DNA of 64,000 bases, taken from the NCBI RefSeq assembly GCF_003425985.1, contig NZ_CP022985.1:1773501-1837500 (forward strand), given 5' to 3'. The stretch is from Mariniflexile sp. TRM1-10. Its GTDB lineage: Bacteria; Bacteroidota; Bacteroidia; Flavobacteriales; Flavobacteriaceae. Of the stretch, positions 23,009 to 30,470 are shown in pieces. Position numbers and translations under genes: made by a program. Numbering within the stretch: the first letter of the stretch is position 1; each line of letters begins with the position of its first letter. The notes below the pieces were generated by a model, which saw only the letters and a list, made by a program, of their open reading frames with translations, had not been told where the DNA came from and did no database searches.

Positions 23009-25447
23009 ATGTTGAATTTTTTAAACAGAATGACAAAACAACTATTAAAGTGCTTTTTAGCATGTATTCTGGCAACTACTTTGTTAAATGCCCAAGAGAA
23101 AAAAGAAATTCCAGATATAGAAAAAATATATATTCATACGGATCGGTCTTTTTATACAGTAGGTGAGTCGTTATGGTATAAAGCCTATTTGGTTTATGCT
23201 TACAATAATTTGCTTTTAGATAATAGTCATATATTATATGTAGAATTGGTTTCGCCAGATTCAAAAATAATTGCAAGAAACAAAACACAGTTAGACAACG
23301 GATTGGGACATGGTGATTTTAAATTAACCGATTCTGTTGGTGTAAAAAATGTCGGAACTTATCAAATAAGAGCTTATACAAACTACAGCCGAAATTTTGG
23401 TGATGACTTTATTTTTAAAAAGGAGATTGAGGTTATTGATGTTTTTGATAAACAAACGGACACTAAAGAAACGGCAAGTAAGTTAAAACCTAAAACGGCG
23501 GAGGTAAATACCAATGAAGCTTCCCAAAACACCTTTAATGTGCAGTTTTTTCCTGAAGGAGGCTCGCTTATAAATGATGTTCAGAGCGTTGTCGCTTTTA
23601 AGGCGGTTGATAATCATGGAAACCCTATTAAAATTGAAGGTAAAGTTTTTGACTCCAATGAGGAACTTGTGGGAATGTTATATAGCAGTCATGAAGGTAT
23701 GGGAAAATTTCAGCTTAAACCACAGAAAGGGAATCAATATAATGCTAAAGTTTCAATATCAGATGGTAATCAAATAGACGTCCCACTTCCTAAAGCACAT
23801 GAAACCGGTTATTTACTAAGTTGTAAAAAAGTTGAGGAAAGAGATATCGTAACTATTAAAACGAATTCAGAAACCTTAGCGCAACAACCCAATACGCCAC
23901 TTACAATCGTTAGCACCACACGAGGTATTAGTTATTTTGAAGGCAGGCAATCAGTATCCAGTACGATTTTTTCTTTTGAATTGCCCAAAACCAATTTTCC
24001 TGAAGGCATTACCCAATTAACATTATACGATGCCAGTTTAAGACCGCAAAGCGAACGCTTGGTTTATATTGAAAAAGAACAGGACCTGCAAGTAACCGTA
24101 GCAACTGATAAGAAGGTATATAAACCTTCGGAAAAGGTAACGGTTAATATCTCCTCAAAAACCAAAGCAGGGGCTCTAGCGTCCGCAAGCTTTTCATTAA
24201 GTTGCACAGATTTGAACGGCTTAGAGGATACCAAAGATTATGGCACAAATATCAGCTCTTATTTTTTAATGGAATCTGATATTAGAGGGCAGGTACACAA
24301 CCCTAGCTATTATTTTGATGCAAGCAATTCCAATAGGTTATACCATCTCGATTTATTGCTTTTAACACAAGGGTGGAGAGATTTTTTATGGAAAGAAGTA
24401 CCAAAAATTAATGATAGTCTTAATTATAAACCCGAAAAAGTGTTTACCATAGCAGGTAGGGTAAAGCAGCTTTTTGGAAATAAACCAAAAGCAAATAGTA
24501 ACATGACTTTAGCCTTAATGGGTAAAACAGGGATAAATATATTTGATACAGAAACAGATTCTCTTGGAATGTTTAAGTTTGATAACCTGGTGTTTTATGG
24601 AAAGGCCAATATGTTTTTAAATTCGAAAAATGATAAAGGAAAAGGCAAAGGGGAGATTATAACATTTCCATTTGAGCCAGACCCAATACCGGTAGCGTTT
24701 AAAAAGCAACCAACCAGTTTTCCTTTAGTTACTAATGCCATTAAAGAGACTATTTTAAGGAAATATGTCAATTATGGTATTGCCCCAGAAAATATATTGG
24801 ATGAGGTTGAAATCATTGCCAAGAAGAAAAACACTACCCAAAGTTTATACGGCATGCCCGATTTTAGCTATGTTGTAGGAGATGAAACCCCTGTTTTTAA
24901 TGATATTTACCAACTTATTCAATACAACATCCCAGGTGTTATTGTTGATGGAGACACCATTCGTTTTATGAGGTTTAGTGGGCCTGCACACATTATATTG
25001 GACGGGTTTCCATTATTCGACCAGTCTCAATTAGATTTTATCTTGCCAGATAATGTTGAAAAAATAGATGCGATAAAAGGGCCAAGTGCAGCCATATTTG
25101 GTTCAGAAGGTGCCAATGGCATTATTGCCATTTACACAAAAGACCCTACGGCAAATGTGCGGTCTAAAAAAGAATTCCATAATATTAGCCAACATATAGA
25201 AGGATTTTATGATGCTCGGGTATTTTATTCGCCAGACCCCAACAAACCATCCTTAGAGATGCAGAACACAGACGCTGTACGCAACACATTGTATTGGAAC
25301 CCCTATATACACCCAGACCAAACAGGCACCTCTCAAGCAAGCTATTACAATAGTGAGGTTGAAACTACTGTTAAAGTGACTTTAGAAGGCATTACCGCAA
25401 CGGGTATTCCTGTGGTGAAGAAGGTGTTTTATACTATTGAAAAGTAA
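23009..25447 (+). CDS. Exported MG2/TonB-plug domain protein
   Basis: The 812-residue protein has a signal peptide ending LATTLLNAQ. An MG2-like start follows (KIYIHTDRSFYTVGESLWYK), then further beta-sandwich domains with carboxypeptidase-regulatory-like segments. Near the C-terminus is a TonB receptor plug-like domain: NIPGVIVDGDTIRF, HIILDGFPLFD, then VEKIDAIKGPSAAIFGSEGA. There is no beta-barrel, so it is not a transporter itself. Such proteins are widespread in Flavobacteria, but their role, perhaps in envelope assembly or export, is not settled. A second in-frame ATG at 23030 would give a more compact signal peptide and is a possible start. Confidence 0.85.
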   Translation: MLNFLNRMTKQLLKCFLACILATTLLNAQEKKEIPDIEKIYIHTDRSFYTVGESLWYKAYLVYAYNNLLLDNSHILYVELVSPDSKIIARNKTQLDNGLGHGDFKLTDSVGVKNVGTYQIRAYTNYSRNFGDDFIFKKEIEVIDVFDKQTDTKETASKLKPKTAEVNTNEASQNTFNVQFFPEGGSLINDVQSVVAFKAVDNHGNPIKIEGKVFDSNEELVGMLYSSHEGMGKFQLKPQKGNQYNAKVSISDGNQIDVPLPKAHETGYLLSCKKVEERDIVTIKTNSETLAQQPNTPLTIVSTTRGISYFEGRQSVSSTIFSFELPKTNFPEGITQLTLYDASLRPQSERLVYIEKEQDLQVTVATDKKVYKPSEKVTVNISSKTKAGALASASFSLSCTDLNGLEDTKDYGTNISSYFLMESDIRGQVHNPSYYFDASNSNRLYHLDLLLLTQGWRDFLWKEVPKINDSLNYKPEKVFTIAGRVKQLFGNKPKANSNMTLALMGKTGINIFDTETDSLGMFKFDNLVFYGKANMFLNSKNDKGKGKGEIITFPFEPDPIPVAFKKQPTSFPLVTNAIKETILRKYVNYGIAPENILDEVEIIAKKKNTTQSLYGMPDFSYVVGDETPVFNDIYQLIQYNIPGVIVDGDTIRFMRFSGPAHIILDGFPLFDQSQLDFILPDNVEKIDAIKGPSAAIFGSEGANGIIAIYTKDPTANVRSKKEFHNISQHIEGFYDARVFYSPDPNKPSLEMQNTDAVRNTLYWNPYIHPDQTGTSQASYYNSEVETTVKVTLEGITATGIPVVKKVFYTIEK

Positions 25448-25451
25448 AAGT

Positions 25452-25655
25452 TTAAATTATCATGCTACCACAAATACCCAAACTTACAATCACGTAAACA
25501 GCAGCTAATATAAAAAGCACCTTTGAGGCCTTTTTATTGTTTTTTCTTAGTGCAAAACCAATAATAGCCAACAGAATTGCTGGTCCCAACATAATGGCAA
25601 TTATTAAAACGAATATGCCGTCTAAATTTCCTATTTCAAGTGAGTACGGGTTCAT
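25452..25655 (-). CDS. Small two-helix membrane protein (operon gene 4)
   Basis: The 67-residue protein has two predicted membrane helices separated by a basic loop (RKNNKKASK) and ends in VIVSLGICGSMII. It is a paralogue of the preceding gene: both share the K-x-SK-x-L-x-ILA block and LGICG near the end. It starts 4 bases after the stop of that gene and is the last member of the operon with the radical SAM and Lgt-like enzymes. I recognise no named family. The paralogy and tight spacing support it as real. Confidence 0.65.
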   Translation of the reverse strand: MNPYSLEIGNLDGIFVLIIAIMLGPAILLAIIGFALRKNNKKASKVLFILAAVYVIVSLGICGSMII

Positions 25656-25659
25656 TACA

Positions 25660-25845
25660 TCATAAGTTTGTTAGTATAGTTCCGCAAATTCCTAAACCTA
25701 TAATAGTATAGGTTGTTGCAAGAATATATAATATTTTTGAGGTTTTTGGTTTTCGAAGACTTATATTTTTACCAACGATAAACATGATTATTGCAGGAAT
25801 ATGGGAAATTATTAAAGCAATTATTGTTACCAGTACTAGTTCCAT
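25660..25845 (-). CDS. Small two-helix membrane protein (operon gene 3)
   Basis: The 61-residue protein has two predicted helices, a basic central loop (LRKPKTSKILYILAT) and the C-terminal motif IIGLGICGTIL shared with its neighbour. It starts one base after the radical SAM stop, so translation is probably coupled. A membrane anchor or subunit for the radical SAM enzyme is possible but is inference only. Confidence 0.65.
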   Translation of the reverse strand: MELVLVTIIALIISHIPAIIMFIVGKNISLRKPKTSKILYILATTYTIIGLGICGTILTNL

Positions 25846-25846
25846 A

Positions 25847-27238
25847 TTACAAATCTTTTCGAAGTTCCTCTAATCGTTCTTTTTTATCATCCCTATAAAA
25901 TAAATTCATCGTTTCAAAAGGGATTATTTTATTGTCTTTATTGACGATGTGTACACACGATTTTTTAATGGCACGTACGTCAAAATTATAAGCATCAATA
26001 AACTGCATGATAATAATACGAAATAAATTATCATAACCCAGATTGGGCGCATCAATATTTGGTAAGCAACACATGATGGATTTTAGGTTTTCTTCGGCAA
26101 CTTCAACAGAATTTCCTGTGCTGAAAAGTTCAATCATTTTTTCTTGAAGTTGCGAATCTTGCTCGTAAATAATCGTGTTTTTGCTATTATCCAACAAATC
26201 ATTTGGGTTGATATAACGCGTTAGCGGAAAAACGTCGCCTCCAAGTTTTAAAGCATACCCCATAACTAAAGCGTCAGGATTACAAGGTACAGGCAGTAAA
26301 TCATCGGGATTGAAAATACTGGTTTGCTCTAATATTTTTCGACGCACTTCAGTAAGTGTCATTCTATCGGTTTCGGGATTAAAATGTTCTAATCTTCCGG
26401 CAATTTGAGTAGGTTGAAACGTGACGCCTCTTACACATTTTTGTTGTAAAGCAAAATCTATTATTTGTCCTATTTCATTGTCATTTAAGCCTTTTTGAAG
26501 TGTTACCACTAAAGTTGTTGAAAGGTTTACGGCATTCAAATGTTCAAGTGCTTTCATTCGGATGTCACTTAAATTGGCGCCTCGTAATTCTTGTAAAACA
26601 CGATCATCAAACGAATCAAACTGTAAATAGATTTCAAAATCGGGGGCGTAGGTTTTTAATTTTTCCGCGAAAGCGATATCCTTTGCAATTTTTATACCGT
26701 TGGTATTCAACATTAAATGGCGAATGGGAAGTGATTTGGCATAATCTAAAATCTCCCAAAACTGTGGATGAATTGTGGGTTCGCCTCCCGAAATTTGTAC
26801 CACATCGGGTTCTTTTTCGTTCTTAACAATGGTATCGAGCATTTTTTTAATTTCATCTAACGTACGGTGGCGGCCATAAGTGGGCGAGGAACCTGCGTAA
26901 CAGGTTGGACAAGTTAGATTACATCTATCGGTAACCTCTACAACGGTTAGGCAACTGTGTTGCTCGTGGTCTGGACACAAACCGCAATCGTAAGGGCAAC
27001 CGTAATGTGTTTTTGTATTGAAAGTGTACGGCGTTTCACTGGGTTTATTGTAGTTGCGTATGTTTTTGTAGTACTCAATATCATCGGCAATTAATACTTT
27101 GCTATGACCATGTTCGTTACAACGTTTTAACATATAAACATTGCCATCTTCAAACACAATTTTGGCGTCAACCCGTTTTAAACAGTCTGGACACAAACTT
27201 AAAGTAAAATCGTAATAGGTATATTTTCTAGTTGGCAT
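25847..27238 (-). CDS. Radical SAM enzyme of the Tes/MJ0619 type
   Basis: The 463-residue protein opens with a cysteine-rich N-terminal module (LCPDCLKRVDAK, then KRCNEHGH). YGCPYDCGLCPDHEQHSC follows, then the radical SAM motif DRCNLTCPTC with Cys106, Cys110 and Cys113, and then the SAM-binding ISGGEPTIHP. Further conserved cysteines appear near the C-terminus (SIMCCLPNI, KKSCVHIV). This layout matches the MJ0619/tetraether-synthase-like family, whose archaeal members join lipid chains at unactivated carbons. I infer family from motif order only; other members may act on different substrates. Its start overlaps the Lgt-like gene by 11 bases and two small membrane proteins follow, so the substrate is likely a membrane lipid or lipid-modified protein. 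Confidence 0.85.
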   Translation of the reverse strand: MPTRKYTYYDFTLSLCPDCLKRVDAKIVFEDGNVYMLKRCNEHGHSKVLIADDIEYYKNIRNYNKPSETPYTFNTKTHYGCPYDCGLCPDHEQHSCLTVVEVTDRCNLTCPTCYAGSSPTYGRHRTLDEIKKMLDTIVKNEKEPDVVQISGGEPTIHPQFWEILDYAKSLPIRHLMLNTNGIKIAKDIAFAEKLKTYAPDFEIYLQFDSFDDRVLQELRGANLSDIRMKALEHLNAVNLSTTLVVTLQKGLNDNEIGQIIDFALQQKCVRGVTFQPTQIAGRLEHFNPETDRMTLTEVRRKILEQTSIFNPDDLLPVPCNPDALVMGYALKLGGDVFPLTRYINPNDLLDNSKNTIIYEQDSQLQEKMIELFSTGNSVEVAEENLKSIMCCLPNIDAPNLGYDNLFRIIIMQFIDAYNFDVRAIKKSCVHIVNKDNKIIPFETMNLFYRDDKKERLEELRKDL

Positions 27239-27971
27239 TTTTTAGTTTTTGAAAGATGAATTTGTAATAATAAAGCCAACAAATTATGCATAATATTTGA
27301 ATGCTACTTAAACCAAATACATAAAAGATATTGGGTTTTAAAAATTCTATAAAAAAACGGAATCCGAAATACAGCAGCATAAAATATTTGAAGTGTTCGC
27401 CATTTTCTAAGCTGAAATTATTTTTAATGTATTTTAAGCTGAAAAACAGCAGTATCAAAAACACCAATTCGTAAAGCGACGTTGGGTGGCGCAATATACC
27501 ATCTCCTAAATCCATTCCGAAGATTGAATATGTCGCATTACCATAAGTAAACTCATTGACACCCGATAGGAAACAGCCAATTCTACCAATAAAAATGCCT
27601 AGAATAATAGGAAATACAAACAAATCGCCAGAAGATTTCGACTCGCCAATAATCTTTTTAGCTAATTCCACACCAAGTAATCCACCAAACAAACCGCCCA
27701 TAATGGTTTTGGTGTTTAATAGTTGGATGATGTTTTCTTTTGAAAATTCAATCATTGGGTTTTCTAAAAATCCAACCAATCGAGAACCAATTAAAGCACC
27801 AATGGCAGCGCCAAGAATAATGGAAAGACGATTCATTGAAGTAATGGAATCCACATGTCTTTTTCTCAAAAAAACATAATATCTATAGGCTACAAAAAAA
27901 GCCAAGTATTCTAAAACTAAGTGGCTATTAATATGATAACCAAAAATTAAGGGTTCAAAAGGAATCTTCAA
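27228..27971 (-). CDS. Lgt-like membrane protein (prolipoprotein diacylglyceryl transferase family)
   Basis: The 247-residue protein has about seven membrane helices. It keeps FIGRIGCFLSGVNEF where Lgt has GRxGNFxNxE, and RHPTSLYELVFL where Lgt has RHPSQLYE. The diverged first motif suggests a paralogue rather than the housekeeping Lgt. Lgt moves diacylglycerol from phosphatidylglycerol to lipoprotein cysteines; this one may handle a related glycerolipid reaction. The frame has no ATG: the best start is TTG at 27971, next to a run of nine A (plus strand). It is the first gene of the radical SAM operon. Confidence 0.8.
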   Translation of the reverse strand: MKIPFEPLIFGYHINSHLVLEYLAFFVAYRYYVFLRKRHVDSITSMNRLSIILGAAIGALIGSRLVGFLENPMIEFSKENIIQLLNTKTIMGGLFGGLLGVELAKKIIGESKSSGDLFVFPIILGIFIGRIGCFLSGVNEFTYGNATYSIFGMDLGDGILRHPTSLYELVFLILLFFSLKYIKNNFSLENGEHFKYFMLLYFGFRFFIEFLKPNIFYVFGLSSIQILCIICWLYYYKFIFQKLKNAN

Positions 27972-28055: not shown

Positions 28056-29051
28056 GTGGTAAAAATAGACAACAAACAACTTCCCGATTTTCCATTGCTT
28101 CTTGCGCCTATGGAAGATGTGAGTGACCCACCATTTCGTGCCTTGTGCAAAGAACAAGGTGCAGATGTGGTGTACACCGAGTTTGTATCGAGTGAAGGCT
28201 TAATACGTAATGCTGCCAAAAGCGTTATGAAGTTGGATATCTATGAAAAGGAGCGACCGGTCGGCATTCAAATATTTGGAGCCAATTTAGAAAGCATGCT
28301 TCAAACCATTGATATTGTTGAAAAATCCCAACCAGATATCATCGATATCAACTTTGGTTGTCCCGTAAAAAAAGTAGTAAGCAAAGGCGCCGGCGCTGGC
28401 ATTTTAAAAGATGTTTGCTTGATGGAACAGCTTACTAAAGAAATGGTAAAACGTACCAACATACCCATAACCGTAAAAACCCGTTTGGGTTGGGATTACG
28501 ATTCCATAAAAATTCTTGAAGTAGCCGAAAGACTGCAAGATGTCGGCTGCAAAGCCATTGCCATACATGGGCGCACCCGTGCCCAAATGTACAAAGGTCA
28601 TGCCGACTGGAAACCCATTGCCGAAGTAAAAAACAACCCACGCATGCACATTCCCGTGTTTGGAAATGGTGATGTTGACACCCCAGAAAAAGCTATGGAA
28701 ATGCGTGATAGTTACGGACTTGATGGTGCCATGATAGGGCGTGCCAGCATTGGCAATCCGTGGTTTTTTAAACAAGTAAAGCACTATTTTAAAACAGGCG
28801 AACATTTAGCACCCATTTCCATTGAAGAGCGTGTTGAGGCAGCCCGTCGTCATTTGCAAATGGCTATCGATTGGAAAGGCGAAACCTTGGGCGTTTTTGA
28901 AACCCGTCGCCATTACACCAATTACTTTAAAAACATTCCACATTTTAAAGAATTAAGAACCAAAATGGTTACCAGTGACCGCCCTGAAGATGTGTTTGCG
29001 GCCTTTGATGAGGTATTGGAACAGTTTGCCAATTATCAATTTACAGAATAA
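28056..29051 (+). CDS. dusB: tRNA-dihydrouridine synthase
   Basis: The 331-residue FMN enzyme reduces uridine to dihydrouridine in tRNA. Motifs are LLLAPMEDVSDPPFR (FMN-binding start), DINFGCPVKKV with the catalytic-loop Cys, IHGRTRAQMYKG, FGNGDV and DGAMIGRASIGNPWFF. The start is a GTG at 28056; the next ATG would remove the FMN-binding strand. The gene is divergent from the Lgt-like gene, with 84 bases between them. Confidence 0.96.
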   Translation: MVKIDNKQLPDFPLLLAPMEDVSDPPFRALCKEQGADVVYTEFVSSEGLIRNAAKSVMKLDIYEKERPVGIQIFGANLESMLQTIDIVEKSQPDIIDINFGCPVKKVVSKGAGAGILKDVCLMEQLTKEMVKRTNIPITVKTRLGWDYDSIKILEVAERLQDVGCKAIAIHGRTRAQMYKGHADWKPIAEVKNNPRMHIPVFGNGDVDTPEKAMEMRDSYGLDGAMIGRASIGNPWFFKQVKHYFKTGEHLAPISIEERVEAARRHLQMAIDWKGETLGVFETRRHYTNYFKNIPHFKELRTKMVTSDRPEDVFAAFDEVLEQFANYQFTE

Positions 29052-29055
29052 TTTT

Positions 29056-29238
29056 TTATTTGGGCAAATGGTAAGCCGCCGCGTTATACACTACTAGCGC
29101 TTTTGCGGGCAACCTCATGCGCATCGGCTTATTTTTAAGGTTTTTGTAAAACGAGATGGTTTTTGTGAGAAGGATGGAAGCGGCATCCTTTTTTGCCAAT
29201 AAAAGCAAAAAAGATATAGCGGACAGCCTGTTTGCCAT
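29056..29238 (-). CDS. Possible small basic protein
   Basis: A 60-residue minus-strand frame lies between dusB and the ABC permease gene. It begins with a hydrophobic stretch (LSAISFLLLLAKK) and ends in a basic tail with MRMRLPAKALVVYNAAAYH. No family is recognised and no promoter or ribosome-binding sequence is evident. Listed because it fills an otherwise empty gap. Confidence 0.3.
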   Translation of the reverse strand: MANRLSAISFLLLLAKKDAASILLTKTISFYKNLKNKPMRMRLPAKALVVYNAAAYHLPK

Positions 29239-29261: not shown

Positions 29262-30470
29262 TTAATGCGCTTCTTCTACCAAAGACTTTGTAATGCGTGC
29301 CGATGCTATTTTTGAAGCAATAATACCCAAAACCGAAATGGTTATAAACACAATAAATAAGTTTTCAATTTTAATGTTTACGGGGTAAGCCAGTGACGGG
29401 GTTATCATAACCAACGAAAATGTTTTTTGAAGATACACGACAATAAGGCTAATTAGTAAGCCTATAAAACCACCCACAATACTCATTAAACTTCCTTGGT
29501 AAAAGAAAATGCGGCGAATGTCCCTGACGGTTATACCGATATTGAATAGGGTATTGAGGCTTCGTTTTTTGTCTAGCATCATCATAATTAACGAACCTAT
29601 AACATTAAAAAAGGCAATAATTAACACCAATGTAAAAATTAAATAAACCGCTAAATTTTCGGTGTTAAGCATTTTATAAAGGGCATCGTTTAATTGCGCC
29701 CTGTTTTTTATAACCACTTTATCGCCTAAAATGGCTTGAATATGTTCTTTTGCAAGGGTTTCATCTACGCCTTCCTTAAGCTTAAACTCTATGGCAGTTA
29801 TTTGGTTGGGTTCGTAGTTTAAAAGATTTTGAGCCAAATCTATAGGAGCATACACATAGGTGTCGTTTAGTTTTTCATTAATAAAAAACACCCCAACATT
29901 AATAACGTTAATGCTGTTAAATGCATTTTTTGTGGAGGTTATTTGTCCTTTTCCTGGTTTTGGAACATAGATGTTTATAGGGTTTACGTAATCTAAAATA
30001 CCTAGTGATAAACTGTTTGCAATACCCCAACCAACCATGATTTGTCGTGATTTTGGCTCTATCCAATTACCGTGTTCTATAACGGTATCAAAACTAACGA
30101 CTTGTTTAAAATGTTCATCAACACCTTTAATAGTGGCGATGGTATTCTTATCTTGAGACGCTATAATAACGCGTTCTTCAACAATTTTAGCATATTGGGC
30201 AATGTCACTTAACTTATTAAGCTTGCTCACATCGTCCTTGGTTAAAATAAACGATTTTCCTTTAGCCGTTTCAGCTTTCAAATCAGGGTCTATTATGCTA
30301 GAAAACTGAAGTGTGAAATCTTTTAAACCCGAAAAGCCAGAAAGCACAATAAATAAGGAAGCAGAACCTAAAATAACACCAATAACGGCTATAATGGTAA
30401 TAAAATTAATGGCATTGTTACTGCTTTTTGAGCGTAAATAACGTTTTGCTATATATAAGGGGACATTCAA
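29262..30470 (-). CDS. FtsX/LolC-E-type ABC transporter permease
   Basis: The 402-residue protein has one N-terminal helix (FITIIAVIGVILGSASLFIV), a large extracytoplasmic domain (about 45-265) and three C-terminal helices with the FtsX-like domain (LNTLFNIGITVRDIRRIFFY). It begins YIAKRYLRSKSSNNAINFIT, the usual start of LolC/LolE-type lipoprotein-releasing permeases. No ATPase gene is adjacent, so it must pair with one elsewhere. It starts 7 bases after the rbfA stop and is probably cotranscribed with it. Confidence 0.9.
   Translation of the reverse strand: MNVPLYIAKRYLRSKSSNNAINFITIIAVIGVILGSASLFIVLSGFSGLKDFTLQFSSIIDPDLKAETAKGKSFILTKDDVSKLNKLSDIAQYAKIVEERVIIASQDKNTIATIKGVDEHFKQVVSFDTVIEHGNWIEPKSRQIMVGWGIANSLSLGILDYVNPINIYVPKPGKGQITSTKNAFNSINVINVGVFFINEKLNDTYVYAPIDLAQNLLNYEPNQITAIEFKLKEGVDETLAKEHIQAILGDKVVIKNRAQLNDALYKMLNTENLAVYLIFTLVLIIAFFNVIGSLIMMMLDKKRSLNTLFNIGITVRDIRRIFFYQGSLMSIVGGFIGLLISLIVVYLQKTFSLVMITPSLAYPVNIKIENLFIVFITISVLGIIASKIASARITKSLVEEAH

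Follow-up and report, generated by a model that had tools for sequence, protein, structure and literature searches.

In bacterial lipoproteins, a charged n-region and a hydrophobic h-region are followed by a lipobox with the consensus [LVI][ASTVI][GAS]C. Among radical S-adenosylmethionine (SAM) enzymes, TrsS goes with the DVU_1556 methyltransferase, and tetraether synthase (Tes, also GDGT-MAS; MJ0619) acts on free lipids, whose tails it joins by a carbon-carbon bond. Here we describe an operon that shares features with each of these systems. It lies in a 64,000-nucleotide stretch (the window) of Mariniflexile sp. TRM1-10, whose genome is a single contig of 4.86 Mb (NZ_CP022985.1, positions 1,773,501 to 1,837,500 of the forward strand), and it encodes a divergent paralogue of the diacylglyceryl transferase Lgt, a radical SAM enzyme related to Tes and TrsS, and two small membrane proteins, sm1 and sm2.

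According to its structural report, Tes crystallised with two lipids bound and contains a rubredoxin-type iron in addition to three clusters, and Met439 is named for the third cluster (PMC9433317; this and all other papers are cited here from excerpts). For Escherichia coli Lgt, a proposal assigns binding and activation of the donor lipid to R143 and R239 and contact with the lipobox peptide to H103 (PMC4728403); H103, Y26 and N146 are essential (PMC4728403, PMC13251419). The latter study, from 2026, describes H103 as poorly conserved and N146 as replaced by Cys in Leptospira Lgt (PMC13251419). In the MYXO-CTERM/myxosortase system, a C-terminal helix comes with an invariant cysteine that an Lgt-like enzyme is predicted to lipidate; this cysteine lies before the helix, the Arg-rich tail terminates in the cytoplasm, and cleavage is carried out by MrtX (PMC11980579).

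The radical SAM enzyme of the window shares with Tes the whole fold, the rubredoxin-like site, the N-terminal auxiliary cluster motif and the radical SAM motif, but it falls under the Tes cut-off, has invariant cysteines of its own and is linked to an Lgt paralogue. TrsS (NF045646) is its best NCBIfam match over most of its length, yet below the cut-off; the operon has no methyltransferase, whereas relatives at two other loci (L190, L193; L and G numbers denote individual loci and genomes) have one closest to DVU_1556. With canonical Lgt (5AZB) the Lgt-like protein shares the fold, the PF01790 domain and the residues R143, E202, R239 and G154. Enzymes of the window type differ by lacking H103, Y26 and N146 and by being an extra copy beside another LGT-family gene (25/25 genomes). 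The small proteins have the positive stretch, the hydrophobic helix, and often the bulky −3 and small −2 residues of a lipobox, but their −1 position is not limited to small residues, and the cysteine is near the C terminus and is not followed by a mature protein. The closest idea is MYXO-CTERM, with the opposite layout: in the small proteins the cysteine lies toward the C-terminal end of the helix, K/R residues come before the helix, and there is linkage to a radical SAM enzyme.

A linked module of two enzymes and tandem small proteins

The window operon is one case of a module that consists of a divergent Lgt paralogue, a Tes/TrsS-related radical SAM enzyme and one to five tandem small membrane proteins. 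The enzymes belong to known superfamilies; no description of the three-part module, tandem C-terminal-cysteine proteins included, turned up in the literature searched, which lacked most subscription journals. A preliminary description made from the DNA sequence had read the locus as one operon of four minus-strand genes, and the open reading frame (ORF) coordinates and Pfam matches bore this out (Table 1). The motifs it had claimed were all located: CPYDCGLCPDH and DRCNLTCPTC in the radical SAM protein, the HPxxLYE motif (HPTSLYE) and a diverged GRxGNFxNxE site (GRIGCFLSGV) in the Lgt-like protein, and the paired GICG motif as LGICG in both sm1 and sm2.

The same description would have been refuted by a neighbourhood analysis in which the four genes are rarely together; strong linkage was found instead. 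In a sample of 296 genomes of the phylum, including the window's own, a radical SAM match at E <= 1e-20 was present in 26 genomes and a strong Lgt-like match (E < 1e-25, a cut of our own choice) in 25, with both in 24. In 23 of the 26 radical-SAM-positive genomes, the Lgt-like gene was on the same contig within about 1.2 kb, a count that includes the weaker Lgt match of G096. The exceptions were G066, which has a Tes-like protein, and two genomes (G034 and G272) whose Lgt-like gene lies on a different contig. In a class sample, the radical SAM protein was detected at E <= 1e-40 in 25 of 395 genomes. The module is thus patchy but tightly linked. The small proteins follow the enzymes: among 60 genomes of the family (one for each genus, with that of the window among them), 12 had the radical SAM gene and 13 the small family, and all 12 were common to both (Fisher p 9e-12). 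At G730:C9:133398-134774, the radical SAM match contains one in-frame TAG and the Lgt-like frame is short, which reflects either decay or an assembly error.

The arrangement was also consistent across individual loci. A first set of 80 near relatives was fetched by radical SAM similarity and is therefore biased toward similar loci; in all 80, the radical SAM gene has an Lgt-like match upstream and one or more small-family proteins downstream. The Lgt-like gene is split over two frames in L046 and L080 and cut by the contig end in L020. At L041 (2956-3250), the Lgt-like gene is present only as a fragment or short frames, while the radical SAM gene and two small protein genes are intact. The near-kin set of 89 loci (L001-L080 and L083-L091) is nearly all labelled Flavobacteriaceae and includes three metagenome-assembled genomes labelled Saprospiraceae (L022, L031, L035) and the window itself (L083), whose radical SAM end is shared by L064 and L084. 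Another 37 loci lie outside this set, among them L121 from the window's own family. An Lgt-like match on the same strand within 2.5 kb was found at 89/89 near-kin loci (eight at more than 350 bases, the farthest at 1932) and at 33/37 of the others; in L155 it is on the opposite strand, and L117, L125 and L178 have none in the stretch. Across the 29 loci having both proteins, radical SAM and Lgt-like identities covary (rho 0.89; 0/1000 permutations as high), as shared descent alone would also lead one to expect.

The module is also found on mycobacterial plasmid records (Table 1). In Mycobacterium branderi and M. avium plasmids, a gene annotated as "Lgt family protein" and two small genes precede the radical SAM gene, and frames at these loci end in GLCTGLNP-, GVCTGLNP-, GICTGLNP- and GYCTGLNP-like motifs. 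An unannotated Nonomuraea record has, before the radical SAM gene, an Lgt-like frame as well as one that ends in GICTGINP. The N-terminal cluster cysteines are present in 0/4 of the mycobacterial, Nonomuraea and L130 radical SAM proteins; those of the mycobacterial and Nonomuraea proteins that were scanned reach 189-195 bits on TrsS. A branch of 4.7 changes per column leads to the actinobacterial and L130 proteins in a 41-protein tree, on which the label "Lgt-linked" must change 5 times, leaving a single origin of the whole module possible but not demonstrated.

Other relatives have different partners. A Mycolicibacterium plasmid (L190:6971-9339) and a haloarchaeal plasmid (L193:3893-6171) carry radical SAM and methyltransferase pairs with TrsS and DVU_1556 as best matches, all below cut-off, and no Lgt in the stretch. 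A variant operon (L128:6486-10088, L129:3435-6941) encodes a radical SAM enzyme, an ICMT-family methyltransferase, a DUF4395 protein, an Lgt-like protein with a GCC motif and a small Cys protein. In eukaryotes, C-terminal cysteines are lipidated and then methylated, of which L128 and L129 are only a loose echo that we do not use as support.

Features of the enzymes and the small membrane proteins

Both enzymes have the lipid character that the preliminary description had proposed. The Lgt-like protein matches PF01790 with 86.2 bits and scores 32.8 bits on TIGR00544, below the cut-off of 118.9 bits. Its structural model (mean predicted local distance difference test [pLDDT] score, 70) had 5azb as its sole Protein Data Bank (PDB) match at E <= 0.001 in Foldseek (E 1.1e-4; template modeling [TM] score 0.60/0.53). 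The genome has a second LGT-family gene (C1:2716264-2717118), which was taken as the ordinary Lgt because it scores much better (195.4 vs 85.6 bits for the operon copy). Another PF01790 copy was likewise present in 25/25 genomes tested.

For residue comparison we aligned 46 Lgt-like proteins (from 41 loci, the window and four plasmid loci; fragments such as L080, L179 and L185 and near copies were left out) with 29 further LGT-family proteins from such genomes, taken from 29 of the 31 comparison loci with a match. R143, E202, R239 and G154 were each retained in 46/46, E243 was Glu or Asp, and R246 was Lys or Arg. At position 103, His was found in 0/46 and V, M, L, A or T in 46/46; Y26 was Tyr in 2/46 and His in 43/46; N146 was Asn in 0/46 and Cys in 46/46. 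The comparison proteins were not uniform either (H103: His 21, Tyr 7, Phe 1; Y26: Tyr 22, Phe 7; N146: Asn 21, Cys 8). With the donor-site residues kept and the acceptor-tied residue lost, the transfer site looks live and its acceptor side altered.

The radical SAM protein matches PF04055 (97.2 bits) and the zinc-ribbon domain PF23545 (70.3 bits). Foldseek aligned its model (mean pLDDT 77.7; residues 358-401 below 50) with Tes (7tol) at TM 0.80/0.76, a root mean square deviation of 7.5 and E 1.2e-37; the other 48 of the best 50 PDB matches had query-normalised TM scores of at most 0.41. The first three Tes-type metal sites are kept with the same spacing: C16/C19/C40/H43, the N-terminal cluster motif CX3CX2C (C81/C85/C88) and C106/C110/C113. 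In sequence, the match to Tes covers residues 11-321 and then 400-456. C319, C390, C391 and C428 are invariant in 28/28 core proteins and may be cluster ligands. By hand numbering, Met439 of Tes corresponds to Met411, Tyr459 to Ile431, C455 to S427 and C470 to E442.

The preliminary description had typed this enzyme as Tes/MJ0619. The relationship and the Tes fold held up; the type assignment did not hold fully, as the protein reaches 299.6 bits on the NCBIfam Tes model NF045702 (cut-off 450) and 333.8 bits on the TrsS model (cut-off 490; residues 12-450). In the 41-protein tree (midpoint root, for drawing only), the Bacteroidota Lgt-linked proteins together with L117, L125, L178, L128 and L129 form a group of 30 (98/94) that sits apart from Tes-like proteins of the same phylum. 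Since the protein stands apart from the Tes-like group and under the Tes cut-off, tetraether chemistry cannot be assumed. The Tes-like proteins themselves (L131, L156-L159) score 432-583 bits on the Tes model, 3/5 over its cut-off, and lack an Lgt-like neighbour across the 12-15 kb read as well as a small-family protein; at L159, the automated picker took one short frame with one transmembrane helix and a late Cys, upstream of the gene and unlike the small family. These five loci possibly encode makers of membrane-spanning lipids.

The small proteins share a positively charged stretch, a last transmembrane helix and a lipobox-like motif (e.g., LGxC or FGxC) a few residues from the C terminus. 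Neither sm1 nor sm2 matched a family above cut-off in Pfam or NCBIfam. In an alignment of 127 near-kin small proteins, a K-rich loop, a Tyr and LGxCG are common, and the Cys in the column of sm2 Cys62 is present in about 95%. It is invariant in profile A5, made from 43 chosen rows that leave out cysteine-less copies. Outside the near-kin set the alignment fades, and small proteins with two or three transmembrane helices still adjoin the enzymes, often in several copies; there are five cysteine proteins in L152, three in L154 and L155, and two in L116, L120, L180, L187, L188 and L189. These distant proteins end in VGFSVC, IGFGTC, LFGMC or QPxxC-type motifs. As scored by the picker, the number of cysteine copies per locus ranges from 0 to 5.

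Of 144 proteins with two or more transmembrane helices picked from the 89 near-kin loci, 137 have a Cys within the last 20 residues, as do 44 of 50 from 31 other loci. In controls from the same loci, such a Cys was found in 9/127 larger membrane ORFs and 15/57 small ORFs (spurious frames included). At least one late-Cys protein was picked at 89/89 near-kin and 29/37 other loci. Inspection of the eight misses by hand turned L124, L130, L181, L183 and L185 positive (in L185, 2.1 kb away), and L133, at a contig end, was set aside; with this, 34/36 of the loci outside the near-kin set have a cysteine protein, and L117 and L178 remain negative. Before the last helix, all picks with a late Cys together have 790 K/R vs 54 D/E. 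By the positive-inside rule, this charge pattern would put the cysteine at the outer face, the side where the Lgt active site has been placed (PMC4728403). Among 44 proteins outside the near-kin set, position −3 was Phe in 21, position −2 Gly or Ser in 33, and position −1 mixed (V 9, A 8, T 7, I 6).

In the window genome, profile A5 found only sm1 and sm2, its other three matches being at E 0.14 or worse, and nothing like a C-terminal sorting tag on many larger proteins was therefore seen there. The NCBIfam model "lipo-invert" (NF058595) was dropped as a family for the small proteins, since sm2 matched it weakly (E 0.1) and 0/10 diverse small proteins did; the term was not found in the literature searched. 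DUF4064 and Gip immunity, both far below cut-off, were dropped as well. At L061 (11173-11361), an additional small Cys protein is encoded about 4.6 kb downstream of the operon.

Table 1. Coordinates of the operon, its motifs and the plasmid-borne modules (window positions unless a locus is given)
Feature	Position	Strand	Remarks
Divergent Lgt paralogue (PF01790)	27228..27971	-	247 aa; TTG start
Tes/TrsS-related radical SAM enzyme	25847..27238	-	463 aa; 11-base overlap with Lgt-like gene
sm1, small protein with two transmembrane helices; proposed lipidation substrate	25660..25845	-	61 aa; gap of 1 base after radical SAM gene
sm2, small protein with two transmembrane helices; sm1 paralogue	25452..25655	-	67 aa; gap of 4 bases after sm1
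GRIGC, Lgt-like residues 129-133 (E. coli R143; N146 replaced by Cys)	27573..27587	-	Hand-derived coordinates
Rubredoxin-like iron site C16-X2-C19-X20-C40-X2-H43, radical SAM enzyme	27110..27193	-	Hand-derived coordinates; Tes-like spacing C9/C12/C33/H36
Radical SAM cluster motif C106-X3-C110-X2-C113	26900..26923	-	Hand-derived coordinates
LGICG of sm1, residues 51-55 (Cys54), last transmembrane helix, near C terminus	25681..25695	-	Hand-derived coordinates
LGICG of sm2, residues 59-63 (Cys62)	25467..25481	-	Hand-derived coordinates
Module on mycobacterial plasmid record	L192:3352-6545		Followed by IS200/IS605 transposase and TnpB
Module on mycobacterial plasmid record	L195:2222-5542		

Outside the operon, an MG2/TonB-plug protein gene (window 23009-25447, +) converges on sm2 with a 4-base gap. 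A Flavo-1 small RNA (RF01705, 49.5 bits; window 29160-29237, +) lies between an ORF ending at 29051 and an ORF starting at 29262.

A candidate proteolipid pathway and its alternatives

We propose that the operon encodes a dedicated lipid-modification module for small membrane proteins, in which the Lgt paralogue lipidates the cysteine and the radical SAM enzyme alters an acyl chain; we give this reading a little less than an even chance. The small protein would insert into the inner membrane with its C terminus outside and the cysteine where the last helix reaches the periplasm. The Lgt paralogue would then move diacylglyceryl from phosphatidylglycerol onto this cysteine. Since the residue before the cysteine is usually not accepted by signal peptidase II, the product would probably stay uncut and persist as a proteolipid. 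Finally, the radical SAM enzyme, on the cytoplasmic side, would abstract a hydrogen from an acyl chain of the attached (or donor) lipid and join or otherwise change the chain. For the first half, diacylglyceryl transfer to an uncleaved small protein, we regard the chances as about even; the second half, radical action on the acyl chain, is suggested mainly by the modelled fold. A more specific version, in which the radical SAM enzyme forms a C-C or C-S bond on the acyl chain of the diacylglycerylated C-terminal cysteine, for example to a lipid of the opposite leaflet, and so creates a membrane-spanning or cross-linked anchor, is unlikely, though conceivable.

Several observations weigh against the proposed pathway. 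G017 has the Lgt-like gene and no radical SAM gene (1 of the 25 genomes with a strong Lgt-like match), and G034 and G880 carry their Lgt-like gene on a separate contig from the radical SAM gene, with no cysteine protein seen beside either. The late Cys in 15/57 small control frames counts on the same side, as does the −1 residue, which does not fit the classic lipobox. Cysteine-less picks occur in 7/144 near-kin and 6/50 other cases. Of the seven, those of L052 and L053 seem to be true family members, each beside an intact copy, and the remaining five resemble other genes or chance frames; one of the six (L182) has a Cys further from the C terminus. Cysteine-less copies are also present in L018, L020 and L042. 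The C-terminal Cys pattern of the radical SAM enzyme is unlike that of Tes, and the radical reaction may accordingly be a different one. The loss of H103 could also signal a non-thiol acceptor, yet this residue is reported to be poorly conserved in Lgt generally.

One genome bears on the cysteine from another side. The only genome of the family sample that has a small protein and lacks the radical SAM gene is G960. Its orphan copy is flanked by unrelated genes and reads LISSGFFYAIIA; with the motif SSGFFYA, the cysteine of this copy is lost. The best Lgt-like match of this genome is weak (E 2.9e-6) and on a different contig. Judged from its sequence, this single copy shows the outcome expected if the cysteine serves the enzymes. 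As the genome is 80% complete, the missing enzymes could be due to an assembly gap.

That the small proteins are non-catalytic subunits of enzymes that remodel free lipids, with the cysteine holding the complex together or carrying an intermediate, is rather unlikely in our estimate. This explanation is close to the preliminary description, which had seen a bacterial lipid- or lipoprotein-modifying system with the small proteins as anchor or substrate-presenting subunits. The co-occurrence of the small family with the enzymes suits subunits too, and a Tes-like enzyme must reach its membrane lipid, according to the excerpted structural work (PMC9433317). However, the copy number varies and, outside the near-kin set, the sequences diverge strongly except near the cysteine, which is unusual for subunits. 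Variable copy number, a near-invariant lipobox-like cysteine and the tie to the enzymes fit substrates better, so that of the preliminary view the lipid character stands and the subunit role has become less likely.

The short, variable tandem genes adjoining a radical SAM enzyme also recall precursors of ribosomally synthesized and posttranslationally modified peptides, in which case the radical SAM enzyme would make a bond within the polypeptide and the Lgt-like protein would anchor or lipidate the product. Weak profile matches to peptide maturases and weaker fold matches to SkfB and SuiB (TM 0.38-0.46) point the same way. However, the best fold match by far is the lipid enzyme Tes, and the conserved core of the small proteins is a single Cys in a membrane helix; we therefore consider a peptide precursor role improbable. 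Still further down we place a pathway to branched-tetraether or membrane-spanning lipids of the Tes/Mss kind with incidental neighbours. The likeness to Tes in fold and sequence speaks for it, and bacterial Tes homologues have been proposed for branched glycerol dialkyl glycerol tetraethers (brGDGTs), as stated in the excerpts of that work (PMC8941075). Nevertheless, the enzyme is below the Tes cut-off, differs in its C-terminal Cys pattern and has Ile431 in place of Tyr459, and the five Tes-like loci lack an Lgt-like gene in the stretches read as well as a small-family protein; this pathway seems most improbable.

In summary, the operon suggests an unknown way of attaching and altering lipid on membrane proteins. 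If the proposed pathway is true, it would be a new route of protein lipidation, at an uncleaved C-terminal cysteine and coupled to radical chemistry of the Tes kind. As excerpted, the Tes papers treat as an open question those bacterial relatives of Tes for which no biphytanyl lipids are known (PMC8941075, PMC9433317), and the module supplies a concrete substrate hypothesis for one group of them. The separation of the Lgt-linked group from the Tes-like one further suggests that Tes/Mss homologues counted in Bacteroidota need not make brGDGT.

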